NCBI GenBank assembly: GCA_036939755.1
Contig: JALLAZ010001499.1
Location: forward strand, 1 to 11,493
Origin: Stephanodiscus triporus
Taxonomy: Eukaryota; Bacillariophyta; Thalassiosirophyceae; Thalassiosirales; Thalassiosiraceae
DNA: 11,493 bases
Direction of reading: 5' to 3'
The notes under the pieces are model-generated. The model was not told where the DNA came from and made no database searches. It worked only from the letters and a program-made list of their open reading frames with translations. This document shows positions 3,258 through 11,220 of the stretch, piece by piece (position 1 is the stretch's first letter; every line of letters starts with the position of its first letter). Both the position numbers and the translations under genes were made by a program.

Positions 3258-3294
3258 TCGGATAATTATTTACTGCCAATAATATTCCACAAAA

Positions 3295-5167
3295 ATGACA
3301 CGACCCTGGTTAGATCTACGGCGCTCTACTGTTGTTGCTCTAATGAAGGACGGCGACGAATTTTCCGAAGTGTTCGATCCGGGCGCGCCGCCCGTCGGCC
3401 TCGACATGGCCGGGCATGACACCCACCTCTTGGGCCCCAAAACTGTCATGTTGGATTCCTTCGTTATCGACTTGCTAAATGTTGACACCGGAGCGCAAAC
3501 TTTCAAGCTGAAGCTGCTCCTTAACATGGATTGGGAAGATGACGGCACCATCGTGCCGGAGACGAAAACCAAGCGTAATTTGCGTTCCAGTTCTGAAGAT
3601 TTCAGTCGTCGAGATAGTTTTGGGTCCGAGTATAAAACTGGAAAGTACGTTCTCAAGAGCGAATTTCGCGACGATCCTGTATCTACGACGTGGAATCCTG
3701 ATGTGGTCCTGGTCAACGCCATTGCCGATGAATCTCCCATCGAGGCCGGATCCAAATTTCACTCTATCCAAATGCTATCCGGGCGACCTATCATCTCAAG
3801 GAGTGTTCTCTACCAACCCGAATGTCGATGCGCTTTCTCGTTTGCGAATTTTCCATTTGACGAGACTGAATTGGTAGTGAAATTCAGCTCTAACAAATGG
3901 AATTCAGAGGAAGTTAAATTCATTTGGTCCAATCGTTTTCAAATTAAGTCCCACCTATCCAGTGACTTGAAGAAGAATGTCGACCAGAACGCCGTTGGTG
4001 GAGTGGGGCTCAGTGAATTTGAGATAATCAAAGTGCGGGTGGAGTCCGATGAGAAGGAAGTTAACTGCATGTCAAAATACGACAATGCCGAAGGCGCCTT
4101 CAGCGAGGCTTATCTCATCATTCATGTCAGACGTGATCCGTATTCCTACCTTTTGCGAGTTGCGGCTGTCGTAGAATTGCTCATGCTTCTAGAGGTGTTG
4201 AGCTTTCTTACGCATGATGACGACTTGAGTGCAAGATTTAGCATCAGCGGGACCATTTTCTTGGCGATGGTCAGCCTTTACGGTCCCATGGCCGACTCGC
4301 TGCCAAAAGTAAGCGTGGTAACGAGGGGGGATAAATGGTGAGCAGGCATTATGCACACAGCGGACAGTAATGTCCCGGCAATCCTTTCGCTCTCTCTCCA
4401 TGCTGATACCGCTGTCTCCCACCCCCAGGCATTTTCAGAACTTTGTGCTTCTCTTTGCATCCAACATCGAAAATCTTGCGGCATGCTTGCTTCGTAAATA
4501 CATCAGCACGGAACATTACAACTTGGTGGAGTCTTTCTTGGCGATTATCTACCTATACTATGTGATCAAAAATCTGTTCTGGTTCGTCAGTCCGTTGAAG
4601 GAGAGGGAAGACTTTTCTAAGTTATTGCTTTGGTTCGAGAATAGGGCTGCGCTTTTCAAAGGTAAACTGCATGGGCATATTTCAAAGATCCGTCTTCGAT
4701 GGACAAAGAAATCAAAAGACGAGGGCAAAGTTGACTCCCATATCAGAACAGTGAGAGCAATGGCAATGGCGTTAAAAGCAGCATGTAAGATGAGTCATAA
4801 GGCACAAGTGTCGAACGGTGAGGCTAGTGGCGGCGGGATTAACGACAACATCATTCACACCAATAGCGACGGCAACAACAACAAGAATCGATTCCTTCAG
4901 CAGGCGCAAGACAGTGCGATCGCCGTCCCAACAAGGAATTTGGCAACGATCGTCAAGCCGAATCAAAAACCTCAGTTGAGACGGAGTCAACTTCCCGTCA
5001 AGGCAGACTCGTCCCCATTCACGGAAAAGGAGATCAAAGAGCTGGAAGGATGTCAGTTCGAGACCGCAGCCAGGTTAGATTCGTCCCGAACCGCCTTTTC
5101 ATCATCGTGGATCCTCGGGCAAGGGAGAAAGAAATTTCCCACCGTGTACCATAAAAAGACATCTTAA
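3295..5167 (+). CDS. Pentameric ligand-gated ion channel (Cys-loop superfamily)
   Basis: Two exons (3295-4337 and 4429-5167) encode 593 residues. The N-terminal ligand-binding domain shows the beta1-beta2 pattern VDTGAQTFKLKLLLNMDW (W80), WNPDVVLVNA (133-142), and the loop C179-x6-FPFD (186-189) followed by W202. M1 is about 284-305. M2 is about 314-336 and ends in LPKVS. M3 is about 350-370 and M4 about 380-401. M2 aligns without gaps to glycine-receptor-type channels: Ala at -1', Arg at 0' (R314), Thr 6', Leu 9' (L323). This predicts an anion pore in the plasma or an internal membrane. The second loop cysteine is replaced by L193. The M3-M4 linker is only about 10 residues, as in bacterial homologues, and a tail of about 190 residues follows M4. 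No signal peptide is seen from this ATG, whose context (AAAAATGA) is good. The ligand is unknown. The family assignment is firm. Confidence 0.9.
4338..4428 (+). other. Spliceosomal intron in the channel gene (91 bp)
   Basis: The donor is G|GTGAGC and the acceptor is CCCACCCCCAG|GC behind a pyrimidine-rich stretch. Removal splits codon W348 (TG|G) and joins the M2-M3 linker LPKVSVVTRGDK to WHFQNFVLLF, restoring the D-x-W spacing conserved in this channel family. Without splicing, a TGA follows W348 at once (4339-4341). Confidence 0.92.
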
Positions 5168-5647: not shown

Positions 5648-6766
5648 TCAGCATTTGGCGAACACTTCGGTGGATATGACCCTGCCCGTTCCACGCGAGG
5701 GCGAGAAAGTGCGCCTGAGAACGAGCTCTCCGTTCCTGACGTATCGCAACGACTCCTCCCTGCCCAGCGGCGTCTCGGAGACCGCGACGTGAGCGACGCC
5801 CCCGTCGGCATCCGCATCCGCCAGGTAAAAACAGCGGCGCCTTGCGACCCCTCCTCCCCCGTCGTCGGCGCCGCCGCCGAATATCGTGGACGTACCCTCG
5901 TATCGTTCCTCGAACTCGCCGATGGGGTAGTGCAGCTCCCGTCGAATTTCGATCCACCCGTCATCGCGGTACGTCGTCACGATCCACTCGCTCGGTCGCG
6001 CCTCGCTGTGTCGTCTCCAGGATTGGAGGTAGGGTTCCGACGCCAGTCGACTCGCGTCATCCGGGCTCAGGCCGCGAGCAACGAGGGCCTCCTCGACGCC
6101 TACGTTTCGACCGTTATCGCGAGACCACCTCCCGCCGAGATCGAGCTCGGCGCATCTTTCCTCCCATCGCGTCGCGAGTCGGACGCAATAGTCCCTCAAT
6201 GCTCGATAGGGTAGAGCCTTCTTCTCCCAGACGTCATCCACGACTCGATCCAGCCCCTCCCAGCGCACGGCGGAGAACTCTGGTCTTTCGCCGTTCAATC
6301 CGGACAGCGTGCAAACGAGTGACGGATCCATTTCGAGATCGGACGACGTGCACCGAAACACGACCCAATTGAGTTCCTGTCCGGCGTATCCCTCATCCTC
6401 CAACCAGCCCCTCGTGCCCTCGGTCTCGTACTTGCACTTGACGACGGCGGTCGTTGTCGTTTCTAGGAGCACGTGCCTTCCGTGCTCGAGTCCCACCTCC
6501 TTGTACATCTCGCGTATCGCGGCATCGAAGACGGACTCCGACCCGTCGATCCCGCCCTGAGGCGCCTGCCACGATCCCGGTTTACCGATCCTCTCCCCGA
6601 TCAGGATCTCGCCCTTCGAGTTCAGGACCGCCACCCCCGCACAGGGCCACCACCTCCGACCGTCGTCGGGTTTGCATTGCAATGGATTATTCCGCTTCGG
6701 CGCAACCGACGATGAAGATGATGATGACGATGCCACGTCGAACCTTCCCGGCAACGCGTTGTTGAT
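5648..6766 (-). CDS. Nudix hydrolase, RppH/Ap4A-hydrolase type, 5' end uncertain
   Basis: Residue numbers count the codon at 6754-6752 as 1. The Nudix domain runs from about 36 to 195. PCAGVAVLNSKGEILIGER is followed by SWQAPQGGID (61-70), a hallmark of dinucleoside-polyphosphate and RNA-pyrophosphate hydrolases. The Nudix box is G67-x5-E73-x7-REM-x-KE-x-GL89. Downstream, YAGQELNW and PEFSAVRWEGLD match the rest of this subfamily. The expected role is cleavage of Ap4A-type nucleotides or 5'-triphosphate RNA, and plant relatives act in plastids. K85 (AAG) stands where a metal-binding Glu is normal. Residues 210-368 form an extra, probably beta-rich domain I do not recognise. No in-frame ATG occurs between the Nudix box and an upstream TAG at 7000-6998. 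The start is therefore probably in an unseen 5' exon, with a candidate acceptor TTTTGTCAG ending at 6767. Confidence 0.85.
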   Translation of the reverse strand: MNNALPGRFDVASSSSSSSSVAPKRNNPLQCKPDDGRRWWPCAGVAVLNSKGEILIGERIGKPGSWQAPQGGIDGSESVFDAAIREMYKEVGLEHGRHVLLETTTTAVVKCKYETEGTRGWLEDEGYAGQELNWVVFRCTSSDLEMDPSLVCTLSGLNGERPEFSAVRWEGLDRVVDDVWEKKALPYRALRDYCVRLATRWEERCAELDLGGRWSRDNGRNVGVEEALVARGLSPDDASRLASEPYLQSWRRHSEARPSEWIVTTYRDDGWIEIRRELHYPIGEFEERYEGTSTIFGGGADDGGGGVARRRCFYLADADADGGVAHVAVSETPLGREESLRYVRNGELVLRRTFSPSRGTGRVISTEVFAKC

Positions 6767-6981
6767 CTGACAAAAGAGCCGATTATTGATGGCAAATGAA
6801 ATACCACGTGCCCAGGCAATCCGCCAAAGGAGTTGGCTGCACGGCGATGACGATCGATGGCCCGCGGTCGACGGTCGTCCTTCAATAATTCCTGGCGGCC
6901 GACAAGAGAGAAGGCGGCAGAGGCGGGTAGGATAGAACGGAATACGTTCTTCTATTGATGATGTGGTGTGTCCTCTAGAGT

Positions 6982-7007
6982 ATTTTACTAGGCGAAGCTA
7001 GTAAAAT
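6982..7007. repeat. Perfect 10-bp inverted repeat
   Basis: ATTTTACTAG (6982-6991) and CTAGTAAAAT (6998-7007) are exact reverse complements around a six-base GCGAAG spacer. Placed inside a divergent promoter region directly before a short tandem array, it could be a protein-binding site, a cruciform or a hairpin in a leader RNA. Confidence 0.75.
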
Positions 7008-7197: not shown

Positions 7198-7971
7198 ATG
7201 AGCACCCTCCGACAGAAAAGGAAGGACCCTGTTTCCAAGGAGGACATCGAGGACCTCATCTCCCTCGACGTCAACGACTCAGCCGTCGATGTCGACGACT
7301 CGGCCGGCTCCGCCTCCTCGTCCAAGCGGACGGTCGCCTCGCACCTTCACCACGATCCCGTCTTCGTCGCCCGGATGGTACTGCGCAAGGTCGGCCAACT
7401 CCTAATAAAAGACGACGAGGAGTCCGACGCGGACGACATCACCACCACCGGGGGGATCATCTCCCTACTGAAGGACATCTTTATCGGGATTGTCGTCGGT
7501 TTGATCTGCGTGTCGGTTTTAATCTTCCTCGATCACAAGGACGTGATCCACATGCAGAGCGCGCACAATTACCGCAACTATGCGAACGCCGTGCTGAGCG
7601 ACCCCGAGACCATGAAGAATGTCGAGGAGAGCTCGGGCCTTAAATTCATGGTCATGGAGGACTATCAGAATAAAATTAAGGAAATCGAATCGTTCTCAAC
7701 AAAGATCGCCGAATTCGAGGAAAAGGGCAAGAAGTACGTCCCCGATTTGGAGGTGGCGAAGAAGGAATACGCGGCAATGAAACCGGATTACGATAAGCTC
7801 GTTGCGGATCCGTTGTTGGGGCTGGATAAGTTCTGCGGGGAGTGCGGGTGGCAGGGGAGGACCAACTGCAACGCCCGTTTGAGTTATTTTGAGACTAAAC
7901 ACAATTTAAGGACGATAGCAGCGAAGCTCGCTATTATGGAGCAGGCCCCACAATGTGTTAAGAAAGAGTGA
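7198..7971 (+). CDS. Single-pass membrane protein with CxxC motif, unknown function
   Basis: This gene encodes 257 residues from an ATG at 7198. Residues 1-90 are hydrophilic, acidic and Ser-rich, with no signal peptide. One strong membrane segment lies at about 92-111 (DIFIGIVVGLICVSVLIFL). A charged region at about 150-200, rich in Lys/Glu, is probably helical or coiled-coil. The C-terminal part has C213-GE-C216-GW, C224 and C253, spaced as in a small metal site or disulfide knot. The N-terminal half uses mostly G/C third positions, like the DUF3172 gene, which supports a real coding gene. I do not recognise a family. The arrangement (cytosolic acidic head, anchor, Cys-bearing tail) suggests a type II or tail-exposed membrane protein, but orientation and compartment cannot be read from sequence. 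Confidence 0.75.
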   Translation: MSTLRQKRKDPVSKEDIEDLISLDVNDSAVDVDDSAGSASSSKRTVASHLHHDPVFVARMVLRKVGQLLIKDDEESDADDITTTGGIISLLKDIFIGIVVGLICVSVLIFLDHKDVIHMQSAHNYRNYANAVLSDPETMKNVEESSGLKFMVMEDYQNKIKEIESFSTKIAEFEEKGKKYVPDLEVAKKEYAAMKPDYDKLVADPLLGLDKFCGECGWQGRTNCNARLSYFETKHNLRTIAAKLAIMEQAPQCVKKE

Positions 7972-8440: not shown

Positions 8441-9670
8441 ATGACGACATCCTCCGCCCAACATCAACGACACGGCAATCGACGGAGGATGATAATTCCC
8501 CTCCCGACGATGCTGCTGATGGCGCTGTGGAACTTCCGAGACCACTCGACGACCGCGATGATGTCGCCGCGTGGCCGAGGTCGGATCGGTCGCGACGGCG
8601 TATCGCCGCCGCCGTCGTCGTCGCCGTCGACGCGCGTCGTCCTCGTCGGCAGTCGTCGTCGCGCCGCGCTGGGGGGCGTCGTCGGCTACGTCGCGGCCCC
8701 GTCGTCGTCGTTTCGTTCGAGAGCGAGACGTGCGCGGTGGGGGGGATCGTCGTCCTCCTCGTCGACGACCACCGCGAAGATGATCGGATCGGCGCGACGT
8801 CGCGACGAGTCCGACGACGACTACGACGACGAGTCCGACGACGACTACGACGACGACCGGTACGGCCGTTACGACGACGGCGCTGGCGGCCGGACCTCGC
8901 GCGGCGATCGCATTCGACGACGACGATTACGACGACTCCCCCCCATGGCCGACGACCTCGGCGTCCCCACCCTCACCGGCTCGTCCCCCGACGACACCTC
9001 CCTCTCCATCCCGTCCCCCTTCGGTCGGGGCGACGCCGGGCTACGTCTCCCCCCCTCGGTGTCCGCCGCCCTCCTCGCGGGCGTGTTCGTTCTCGGGATG
9101 GGCACTGGCGTCACCGTCGACAGCCAGATCAACACCAACCCGCGCGACCTCGCTAGTCGCGACGCCGTGGACAAGAACGCGCCCAACCCGACGCTGTGCA
9201 CGACCTACGGCGCGTCGGCGATGGCGTTCGATCAGCGCGTATTCGTTAGCTTCAACCCCTTCAACGTGTACGTTGCCCAGGCGGACGTCAAGCCCGCGTG
9301 CGTCCTTCGTCCGGCGAACGTCGTACCGATACTCAAGGAACGGAAGCTATTAAACGACGACGAGATACGAGGGTGCAAGATGAACATGAACACGTGGGCG
9401 TTCGTTGGCGACCTGAACGACCAGCCTCAGCTCAGCTGCGTTTACAAGAGCGAGGACGCGCAGAACGAGTTCTTGGACGATCCGAAGAGGGGGATCGGGG
9501 AGGATTACCTGGACGACGATTACAGGAGGGCGATGATGATGAAGAGGGACGTTACGGCGGGCAAGATGAAGACCGGGAAGATGGTGAAGGACACGTTGAC
9601 GGAGGGGCAGAAGATGTCGATCCTGGAGATGGGGGAGAAGACCATGGTCGGGTCCGGAGGTGGCGGGTGA
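8441..9670 (+). CDS. DUF3172 family protein, probably plastid-targeted
   Basis: This gene encodes 409 residues. The C-terminal part from about 205 matches the DUF3172 family of cyanobacteria and algal plastids. A membrane segment (SVSAALLAGVFVLGMGTG, 206-223) is followed by LASRDAVDKNAPNP (237-250), C253, YGASAMAFDQRVFVSFNPFN (256-275), C287, C312 and C333. The molecular role is unknown in the family. The N-terminus has a basic start, a hydrophobic run (MIIPLPTMLLMALW, 17-30), then an Arg/Ser-rich stretch without acidic residues up to 120. This fits the signal plus transit peptide used for diatom plastid import, although no clear ASAF-AP motif is seen. Residues 121-165 are an Asp/Tyr then Arg-rich insert, partly from a 24-bp duplication. 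M17 (8489) is an alternative start. The extreme G/C third-position bias supports the frame. Confidence 0.88.
   Translation: MTTSSAQHQRHGNRRRMIIPLPTMLLMALWNFRDHSTTAMMSPRGRGRIGRDGVSPPPSSSPSTRVVLVGSRRRAALGGVVGYVAAPSSSFRSRARRARWGGSSSSSSTTTAKMIGSARRRDESDDDYDDESDDDYDDDRYGRYDDGAGGRTSRGDRIRRRRLRRLPPMADDLGVPTLTGSSPDDTSLSIPSPFGRGDAGLRLPPSVSAALLAGVFVLGMGTGVTVDSQINTNPRDLASRDAVDKNAPNPTLCTTYGASAMAFDQRVFVSFNPFNVYVAQADVKPACVLRPANVVPILKERKLLNDDEIRGCKMNMNTWAFVGDLNDQPQLSCVYKSEDAQNEFLDDPKRGIGEDYLDDDYRRAMMMKRDVTAGKMKTGKMVKDTLTEGQKMSILEMGEKTMVGSGGGG
8804..8851 (+). repeat. Exact 24-bp tandem duplication inside the DUF3172 gene
   Basis: Two identical 24-base units (8804-8827 and 8828-8851) encode DESDDDYD twice. 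They keep the frame and extend the acidic linker between the targeting region and the membrane segment. Confidence 0.9.
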
Positions 9671-10294
9671 TCTCAAGGGGGCGAGGGATTTTCGTTCGCT
9701 TTCGATTCCCAGTTTCACTTGTGTTGTATGTCGATTCCGAATGGTGGTGATGGGGGAGGGGGCGAATAATAATAACAACGCGTCTGACGTTTACAGTTCA
9801 TTAATAAACAGGATGCAACTTCAATAATGTTTGCGTCGACGTCCATCTACCAACCTCCCCTCCCACCTTTCCCCAATAAAATAGTCCAACTCACCCTATC
9901 CTGACACCACACAGTGAAACCTTCTCCATGAACTTGACCTTCAACAGTTATCAAACGGGCATCACAATTGGTTCTCCCCTGCTACATCGCTGTGTGATTA
10001 TTTCATGATATATTAATACTACCGTTCGAAGTTGATGATACATAAAAGACTTGCGAGAGACGGAATAATAAGTATCATATCTGCGTGTCCAACCAAAAAG
10101 TTGGTTGAGAGAGACGCAAAAAAAAATGACTACCCTAATGCCGGTGTGATGACAACCCATGCACCACAGACCACCAGTGCTGCTTGATGAGGTGTAAGAT
10201 GAATACGTGCAGTGGGAAGGACCGCACTGATGCCTATGGAAGTCCGCTACTGGTACCTTAAGGGACATAGTCCCTAGGTGCTAGGTCTGTCCAT
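9671..10294. other. Spacer after DUF3172 gene, with polyadenylation-type signals
   Basis: This stretch holds two AATAAA hexamers, at 9803-9808 and 9875-9880, that could end the DUF3172 transcript about 135-205 bases after the stop. Further on are AT-rich DNA and a small inverted repeat (CCAAC/GTTGG, about 10090-10105). AGGGA/TCCCT (10261-10275) forms another small stem. I see no supported gene. Confidence 0.5.
9803..9808 (+). terminator. Candidate polyadenylation signal AATAAA
   Basis: An AATAAA hexamer lies 133 bases after the DUF3172 stop codon, in AT-rich sequence. A second copy at 9875-9880 is an alternative. The assignment rests only on the hexamer and its position. Confidence 0.4.
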
Positions 10295-10378
10295 CGGCGG
10301 GTATTTTCTATATATCCGCCGGAGCGGGGTATTTTCCATATACCCGCCAGAGCGGGGTATTGTTTGTATATCCGACAG
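10295..10378. repeat. 3 x 28-bp tandem array with internal dyad
   Basis: Three adjacent 28-base units (10295-10322, 10323-10350, 10351-10378) share the pattern GCGGGGTATT...TATAYCCGCCAG. Within a unit, GGGTA and TACCC-type ends are inverted, best in unit 2 (GGGTATTTTCCATATACCC), so each unit can form a small hairpin. There is no spacer, so it is not a CRISPR array. It lies 128 bases before the ATG at 10506 and may be a minisatellite or a multi-copy protein-binding site. Confidence 0.85.
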
Positions 10379-10505
10379 AGCTGTCCTCTCCGCAATACAT
10401 GTTGCTCTTTCACATCTAGCATTATGACTTGATTACTCTAGATTTCGTAAATCTAAGTCTCACTTCATCCTGTTTCTCATCTAAGTGGTGCTTCATGAAC
10501 TGATC

Positions 10506-11220
10506 ATGCTCTCCTTGCTCTTTCTTCTCTTTTCATCTCGACCCTTCTTCTACGCTTCCGCCATGTCCAGTCCGACAATTCAGGCCTATCGTGCTTCCAA
10601 AATGAAGCCTCCTTTTGTCCCTCACAAGCCCGAGATTGTCACCACTAGGTGCACTAGCGTCTCGCTCTACCCAAAAGTCGATTCTAGCATGACTGATCCC
10701 AAGAAAGCTCTCGCCTACCAGCACAACAAGACTGCTTTGGCCTGTGCTGATCTTGATCAGCGTGCCCGCATCTTGACTTTGGCTGATAGACTCAATTTGA
10801 TGCTCATGGCCAAGTCTGGACTTGCCGATTGGGAGCGCAAACTCTCTCAGAATTGGGCGAACTTTCAGTTTTTGACGATACTCTCTCATGGCACGTTGCA
10901 AAGGGTGCAGCCATTGCCAACATGACTGTGGCGATCGATCTTTTGACCCTCCCACCCTACCAGGATGGGCCCGTTGGGGCATGCCGCGCCGCCGGCATCA
11001 AATTCGTCCGCGTCCAGCTTGAGCTGGATTTTGCTGACCTCACCATTGCCACGGGCGGCGCCTGCTCCCTACGTTAGCAGCAGTGCCTGCTCCCTATGTT
11101 ATCCTCCGCAGGGAATACTACATCCGACTCCCCCAGAGCTCCATCGACCTAACCAATGGCACGGGTGCAGGTTATCGTCTGATGACATGGCTTGGTGCGG
11201 CCGACTGGTTCTCATCCTAG
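10506..11220 (+). pseudogene. Unrecognised coding remnant in three successive frames
   Basis: I do not recognise the family. An ATG at 10506 gives a hydrophobic, signal-like start (MLSLLFLLFSSRPFFYASA), then a region with LADWERKLSQNWANFQ, ending at 10925. A second frame carries plausible protein from about 10871 (FDDTLSWHVAKGAAIANM, then VGACRAAGIKFVRVQLELDF) to TAG at 11075-11077. A third carries APYVILRREYYIRLPQ to GAADWFSS and stops at 11218-11220. Each change is by minus one base. A 25-bp duplication sits at the second break. The end of the second frame resembles the third (DLTIATGG against DLTNGTGAG), so the protein had an internal repeat. A decayed gene or mobile-element relic is likeliest. 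Introns, for example with acceptor CTTTCAG at 10862-10868, are an alternative. Confidence 0.4.
11060..11101 (+). repeat. 25-bp direct duplication, frame-breaking
   Basis: GCCTGCTCCCTACGTTA (11060-11076) recurs at 11085-11101 with one mismatch, at an offset of 25 bases. An offset not divisible by three shifts the reading frame, and the first copy ends in the TAG that closes the second frame of the remnant around it. Confidence 0.8.

Follow-up and report, generated by a model that had tools for sequence, protein, structure and literature searches.

The gene at positions 3295-5167 (+ strand) of the window (the whole 11,493-nucleotide stretch of Stephanodiscus triporus DNA analysed here) was firmly assigned, on the evidence of its sequence, to the pentameric ligand-gated channels (pLGICs), as a Cys-less (Pro-loop) subunit of Thalassiosirales diatoms. 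We propose that this subunit is made without a signal peptide and that its ligand domain faces the cytosol, where a cytosolic ligand or state would gate the channel and kinases would tune it; we regard the case for and the case against this proposal as evenly balanced. The predicted gene has two exons and one intron. The reading frames 3283-4341 and 4322-5167 were joined across a 91-bp GT-AG intron (4338-4428), which gave a protein of 593 residues with the following features (window positions, strand).

3280..3282 (+): in-frame TAA stop, four codons 5' of the ATG, with no AG acceptor between stop and ATG
3295..4337 (+): exon 1, from the leader and ligand-binding domain through M1 and M2 to the M2-M3 linker; the intron interrupts codon 348
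3295..3438 (+): N-terminal leader, residues 1-48, ahead of the first predicted strand, without a signal-peptide-like hydrophobic core; the domain start was set by alignment
3319..3330 (+): RRST at residues 9-12 of the leader, a motif of basophilic-kinase type
3439..4134 (+): pLGIC ligand-binding domain, about residues 49-280, of which Pfam matched only 130-229
3607..3618 (+): RRDS at residues 105-108, a motif of basophilic-kinase type that lies in the early-strand insert
3691..3702 (+): WNPD motif, residues 133-136
3823..3831 (+): CRC, residues 177-179, invariant in 16 aligned rows; its second Cys is the first Cys-loop position
3850..3861 (+): FPFD Pro-loop motif, residues 186-189, without the second Cys of the Cys loop
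4141..4212 (+): M1, about residues 283-306, with E294 and E300 invariant and no Pro kink
4231..4296 (+): M2, from -1' (A313) to 20' (D334); R0' is residue 314 and L9' residue 323
4338..4428 (+): intron, 91 bp, GT-AG
4429..5167 (+): exon 2, with M3, M4, the C-terminal tail and the stop
4430..4501 (+): M3, about residues 349-372
4517..4594 (+): M4, about residues 378-403, preceded by a short M3-M4 link
4595..5164 (+): C-terminal tail, about 190 residues, net charge +17

In the profile search of both channel domains that the initial annotation had proposed, the ligand-binding domain was recovered over its curated cut-off (Pfam Neur_chan_LBD, E 2.2e-11) and the Pfam membrane domain fell below its own (E 0.021). 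Among sequences of solved structure, the nearest to the window protein were GABA-A delta (7.3e-8) and glycine receptor beta (1.9e-6); with a profile built from 47 relatives, GABA-A gamma-2 was found at 1.3e-9, and the alignment of the window protein with GABA-A receptors was gap-free from M1 to early M3. The annotated identity as a pentameric ligand-gated channel subunit was borne out by these matches, and the hallmarks WxPD and FPFD, annotated as those of an extracellular domain, were found as WNPD (133-136) and FPFD (186-189). The structure predicted for one relative (P0002) is of low confidence; its strands and helices follow the pLGIC order, in agreement with the annotated beta-sandwich plus four-helix arrangement, and the best 50 matches listed for it by each structure-search program were pLGICs only. 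Because of the low confidence, no argument on ligand pocket or pore geometry is supported by this model.

As for the characters of the superfamily, Table 1 of Jaiteh 2016 (PMC4795631) gives frequencies of 100% for the Pro-loop Pro, 94% for the pre-M1 Arg, 77% for the M1 14' Pro, 79% for a basic 0', 75% for Leu 9' and 88% for the M2-M3 Pro. The window protein has the Pro loop [F/Y]PxD (P187, F188 and D189 invariant in 16 aligned rows), the pre-M1 Arg (VRRDP, with R279 and R280 invariant), the basic 0', Leu 9' and M2-M3 Pro (R0', L9' and P23', each in 62/62 rows) and the beta-sandwich domain with four TM helices (Pfam ligand-binding domain; the low-confidence P0002 model and its structure matches). 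The M1 14' Pro, which is common and not universal in the superfamily, is absent, M1 (YSYLLRVAAVVELLMLLEVLSF) having no Pro opposite that of GABA-A delta. An animal-type Cys loop (two Cys bounding a 13-residue loop) is also absent, with C179 present and Leu193 at the second position. The loop A and loop B aromatic positions, which by alignment with GABA-A delta we take to be Val138 and Asn200, are not aromatic in the window protein; N200 and the loop-C Tyr (262) are invariant. By this presumed mapping, a classical aromatic box is not evident.

The DNA is that of a diatom, as the initial annotation had supposed, because the assembly of which the window is one contig (21.65 Mb, 1324 contigs) encodes a silicon transporter (E 8.9e-228). 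Searches of all contigs with the protein, with PF02931 and at the DNA level found no second pLGIC copy, this locus being the only one. A match to PF02932 on contig C874 (E 0.0118, under the cut-off) was rejected as chance; it is of low complexity and lies opposite a large Asp/Arg-rich reading frame. The first homology search returned 57 rows, 56 of them relatives of the window protein, and a profile search gave at least 85 rows at E <= 0.01. All relatives with a readable species name are Thalassiosirales diatoms (Cyclostephanos tholiformis, Thalassiosira profunda, T. exigua, T. oceanica, Thalassiosira sp. AJA248-18, Cyclotella cryptica, C. atomus, Skeletonema marinoi and Conticribra weissflogii; two MMETSP labels read 'Thalas'), and many other rows are metagenome proteins. 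The taxonomy was checked for C. tholiformis, C. weissflogii, S. marinoi, C. cryptica and T. oceanica, and 5/5 belong to the Thalassiosirales. Among the matches listed, the closest is a JGI protein (P0001) with 96% identity over exon 1, whose contig also holds exon 2 (P0055); the reading frame and motifs are conserved across the relatives. No relatives were found in prokaryote genomes or on viral contigs, and GLIC, used as a query to bridge to prokaryotic controls, gave no loci. Note that these searches need shared 5-residue words, and the pennate diatom pLGICs in print lie outside their reach.

One outlier, P0056 (704 aa, ENA), joins the channel M1-M4 part to an inositol-monophosphatase-type domain (PF00459); this fusion is most likely two adjacent genes run together. 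A search with it (1531 candidates) returned 27 rows, every one already in the family.

The leaders were examined by a crude hydropathy test (best 10-residue mean within residues 1-36, signal-like at 1.9), applied to those 57 of 87 sequences that begin at a Met and extend to the conserved GHD motif, the others being fragments or without the motif. The signal peptide, a feature of the superfamily, has no counterpart by this test in any of the 57 leaders: the highest value was 1.58 (P0015; its relative P0016 begins further in, at a later Met) and the window leader gave 0.92, against 2.35 for the control P0057, an animal-type receptor with a signal peptide. Because the test is crude, membership in the pLGICs rests on homology and not on the leader. 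The missing signal peptide puts an extracellular ligand domain in doubt. Mitochondrial or plastid targeting is not favoured, the leaders being inconsistent (Arg/Ser-rich in P0002, acidic in P0005 and P0007).

A conventional topology, with the ligand domain outside or lumenal, is a serious possibility, which we place somewhat below an even chance. It would mean that a 5' exon encoding the signal peptide was missed, or that the domain crosses the membrane with no cleaved signal, M1 serving as a reverse anchor. To our knowledge, all characterised relatives have this topology. Tasneem 2004 reports that every bacterial member it covers has a signal peptide, and describes the animal ones as built on the same plan. 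The fold and gating contacts are conserved in the window protein, and loop charges discriminate poorly between orientations. Gene models can miss a 5' exon, models with exons and introns often lose their 5' ends, and many rows are single-exon metagenome calls. However, a signal-like core is missing from all 57 leaders, including at least nine that are transcript-derived by source label (MMETSP/EukProt), six of them 'type:complete'. The window ATG is preceded by an in-frame stop with no acceptor between, so that any exon further 5' would have to join within the present one, and the window leader aligns with that of P0011 from the Met onwards. Translocation of about 280 residues without a signal is also unusual, and RRx[S/T] motifs lie inside the ligand domain.

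RRx[S/T] is the classical basophilic-kinase motif. Its observed and expected numbers in 44 sequences were 10 and 0.8 in the leader, 19 and 3.1 in the early-strand insert, and 30 and 6.7 in the F-loop insert, the background being composition-matched shuffles, in which the excess of each segment was reached in 0/500; none was found in the structured core of the 44 sequences. With 12 representatives under 85% identity, the numbers were 3 against 0.23, 4 against 0.99 and 8 against 1.40, respectively, and with 4 representatives under 78% identity the enrichment was not significant for the two inserts. The F loop of the window protein has no such motif, its sites being RRST at residue 9 and RRDS at residue 105.

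Because there are four TM helices, the C-terminal tail and the ligand domain share one side of the membrane. In the rows listed, fragments and the fused P0056 excepted, this tail runs for 26-189 residues after M4, and it is net positive in 22/24, P0008 and P0038 being net negative. In matched 15-residue TM flanks, the net charge per residue was higher on the ligand-domain side in 22/24 (mean +0.040 vs -0.043; P0013 is opposite and P0026 a tie), and K+R density favoured that side in 19/24. As controls, GLIC showed no contrast (net +2 on both sides) and P0057 showed the expected opposite bias. Basic residues directly before M1 are usual in canonical members too; the loop charges agree weakly with a cytosolic ligand domain. 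No N-glycosylation sequon was found in the window protein. In the relatives, sequons are rare in the structured core and are not depleted in the flexible segments (leader 12 vs 15.5, insert 43 vs 34.4, F loop 16 vs 11.8). The RRx[S/T] motifs, the charged tail and the flank charge are all consistent with a cytosolic N-terminal domain.

The proposed channel with a cytosolic ligand domain would work as follows. By analogy with the superfamily, five subunits would surround a pore lined by M2, and a shape change of the beta-sandwich would be passed through the contact of FPFD with the pre-M1 Arg, pushing the M2-M3 linker and opening the gate at Leu 9'; the fold, the Pro loop, the pre-M1 Arg and the M2 pore with its 9' Leu are present in the predicted protein. 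Lacking a signal peptide, the ligand domain would most likely stay in the cytosol, together with the 20' mouth and the charged C-terminal tail, and the -1' mouth would face the outside or an organelle lumen, the host membrane being either the plasma membrane or an endomembrane. Opening would be brought about by a cytosolic ligand or state; basophilic kinases may tune the channel at RRx[S/T] sites in flexible segments, and phosphorylation is itself a candidate gating signal. Extended to the family, this would be an inverted group that dropped the signal peptide and became a cytosolic sensor of a metabolite or second messenger under kinase control, its -1' ring turned outward or to a lumen and repeatedly neutral or acidic; we hold this extension to be a little less probable than its denial. 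In the literature covered, which included few subscription papers, no report of pLGICs with a cytosolic ligand domain was found.

For the pore, the M2 table was made from the 62 of 87 rows that hold M2. The segment from 0' to 25' is nearly frozen: positions 0', 1', 2', 4', 5', 6', 9', 10', 12', 14', 15', 23' and 25' are invariant, with R at 0', S at 2', T at 6' and L at 9' each in 62/62 rows. Position 20' is acidic in all 62 (D 54, E 8), where GABA-A gamma-2 has Lys and delta has Ser. The residue at -1' is A in 32, D in 22, G in 6 and E in 2 rows, and that at -2' is S in 43, A in 14, G in 3, C in 1 and P in 1; the window protein has S at -2', and the Pro of the anion motif is absent from its sequence at this position. 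Neutral/acidic changes at -1' numbered a minimum of 8 on a 56-row tree, which was built without the M1-M2 loop after 31 of the 87 rows had been dropped as fragments, outliers or unmatched; since the deep branches are weakly supported, this count is tied to that tree. In 6 of the 56 rows of the tree (five neighbours including Skeletonema, and T. profunda), D at -1' is accompanied by an M1-M2 loop that has one residue fewer, and a loop shortened by one residue with an acidic -1' is a trait of cation channels.

Ala at -1' before a basic 0' is a mark of anion selectivity (Tasneem 2004), and Jaiteh 2016 (PMC4795631) states that the phylogeny made there tells nothing of selectivity outside the Cys-loop clade. 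The window protein carries this mark, and the Ala at -1', Arg at 0', Leu at 9' and gap-free M2 alignment with anion receptors were all as the initial annotation had described them. Among the 62 rows, A/G is found in 38 and D/E in 24; the cation mark, E/D at -1' before a basic 0', is thus carried by 24 rows of relatives and not by the window protein. GLIC, with E at -2', A at -1' and N at 0', is cation-selective, and therefore an Ala at -1' is not by itself enough for anion selectivity. The ring of acidic residues at 20' and the many rows with D/E at -1' tilt towards cations and the window's Ala at -1' towards anions, and we lean slightly, with little confidence, towards cation permeability. 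Real as the window's Ala at -1' is, the family as a whole lacks an anion signature, and the annotated anion-type pore is not supported for it. The observations of the initial annotation were confirmed and its interpretation was supported in part.

A chloride channel at the cell surface that is opened by an external chemical, as an algal equivalent of the glycine receptor, would fit the A-1', R0' and L9' of the window protein, the gap-free M2 and the fact that the best solved-structure matches are anion channels. We nevertheless consider it improbable, because -1' is D/E in 24 of 62 rows, 20' is acidic in all of them and -2' is Pro in only one, the hydropathy test found no signal peptide, and the presumed loop-B aromatic position is the invariant N200. 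That the protein is degenerate or non-conducting and merely retains the fold is very improbable: M1 lacks the Pro kink and has two invariant acidic residues and the Pfam membrane domain is below cut-off, but M2 is nearly invariant over 62 rows, the 9' Leu and Pro loop are intact, and conservation across Thalassiosirales is strong.

Elsewhere in the window, positions 628-1240 and 1382-1959 are two tandem-like copies with blocks of 91-96% identity at a spacing of 719-754; sequences with 81-92% identity to their last ~140 bases occur on several other contigs (C823, C119, C1274 and C228), and this is a dispersed repeat, perhaps a mobile element. A short direct repeat (88 bases, 85% identity) occupies 25-112 and 244-331. 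The region 5648-6994 (-) encodes a NUDIX hydrolase (Pfam E 5.3e-13) with a C-terminal extension, which in NCBIfam comes closest to RNA pyrophosphohydrolase (E 1.8e-21, below the cut-off of that family), 7201-7971 (+) a protein of 256 aa that has a single hydrophobic segment and matches no family over cut-off, and 8441-9670 (+) a DUF3172 protein (Pfam E 2.6e-57), of a family that occurs in cyanobacteria and plastid-bearing eukaryotes. The region 10180-10700 (+) is a repeat, of which contigs C1146 and C85 carry diverged copies (77-91% identity), and it is adjoined by a short reading frame (10563-10922) with no family match.

Known pLGICs are treated as sensors of the outside (or of the periplasm), and their role in single cells has been called unanswered (Jaiteh 2016, PMC4795631). 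If the inverted topology is true, an order of abundant marine diatoms uses the pLGIC fold turned inward, to cytosolic ligands and kinases and not to dissolved neurotransmitters; if the topology is conventional, the gene simply adds one more member to a diatom channel family already known. Nature has also run an experiment on selectivity in this family, -1' changing charge repeatedly while the rest of M2 is nearly invariant.

Cys-less pLGIC genes have been reported in stramenopiles, diatoms included (Jaiteh 2016, PMC4795631), and across diatoms with losses in some, T. pseudonana being without them and P. tricornutum and T. oceanica being named as hosts from earlier work (Murphy 2024, PMC11085791); thus, a receptor-like channel in a diatom is not new. 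T. oceanica THAOC_09857 (P0026) belongs to the family found here and is, we infer, the T. oceanica pLGIC of Murphy 2024. Those protist receptors and the window protein are alike in the FPxD Pro loop without a Cys pair, the four TM helices and the diatom host, whereas the Thalassiosirales family differs in its leader without a signal-like core and its long charged C-terminal tail. The parts of Jaiteh 2016 and Murphy 2024 used here contain no discussion of signal peptides in diatom Cys-less pLGICs, and in the former the terminal parts of the sequences were discarded. The GABA-A and glycine receptors are the best structure matches in sequence and fold, are alignable without gaps from M1 to early M3 and share A-1', R0' and L9' with the window protein; unlike them, the window protein has no Cys loop, signal peptide, -2' Pro, M1 Pro or long M3-M4 domain, its 20' is acidic, and Val takes the place of the linker Tyr (LPKVSY in inhibitory receptors). 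GLIC and the prokaryotic pLGICs are similar to it in having no Cys pair and a short M3-M4 link; GLIC, however, has a signal peptide and ends directly after M4, where the window protein continues into its C-terminal tail.
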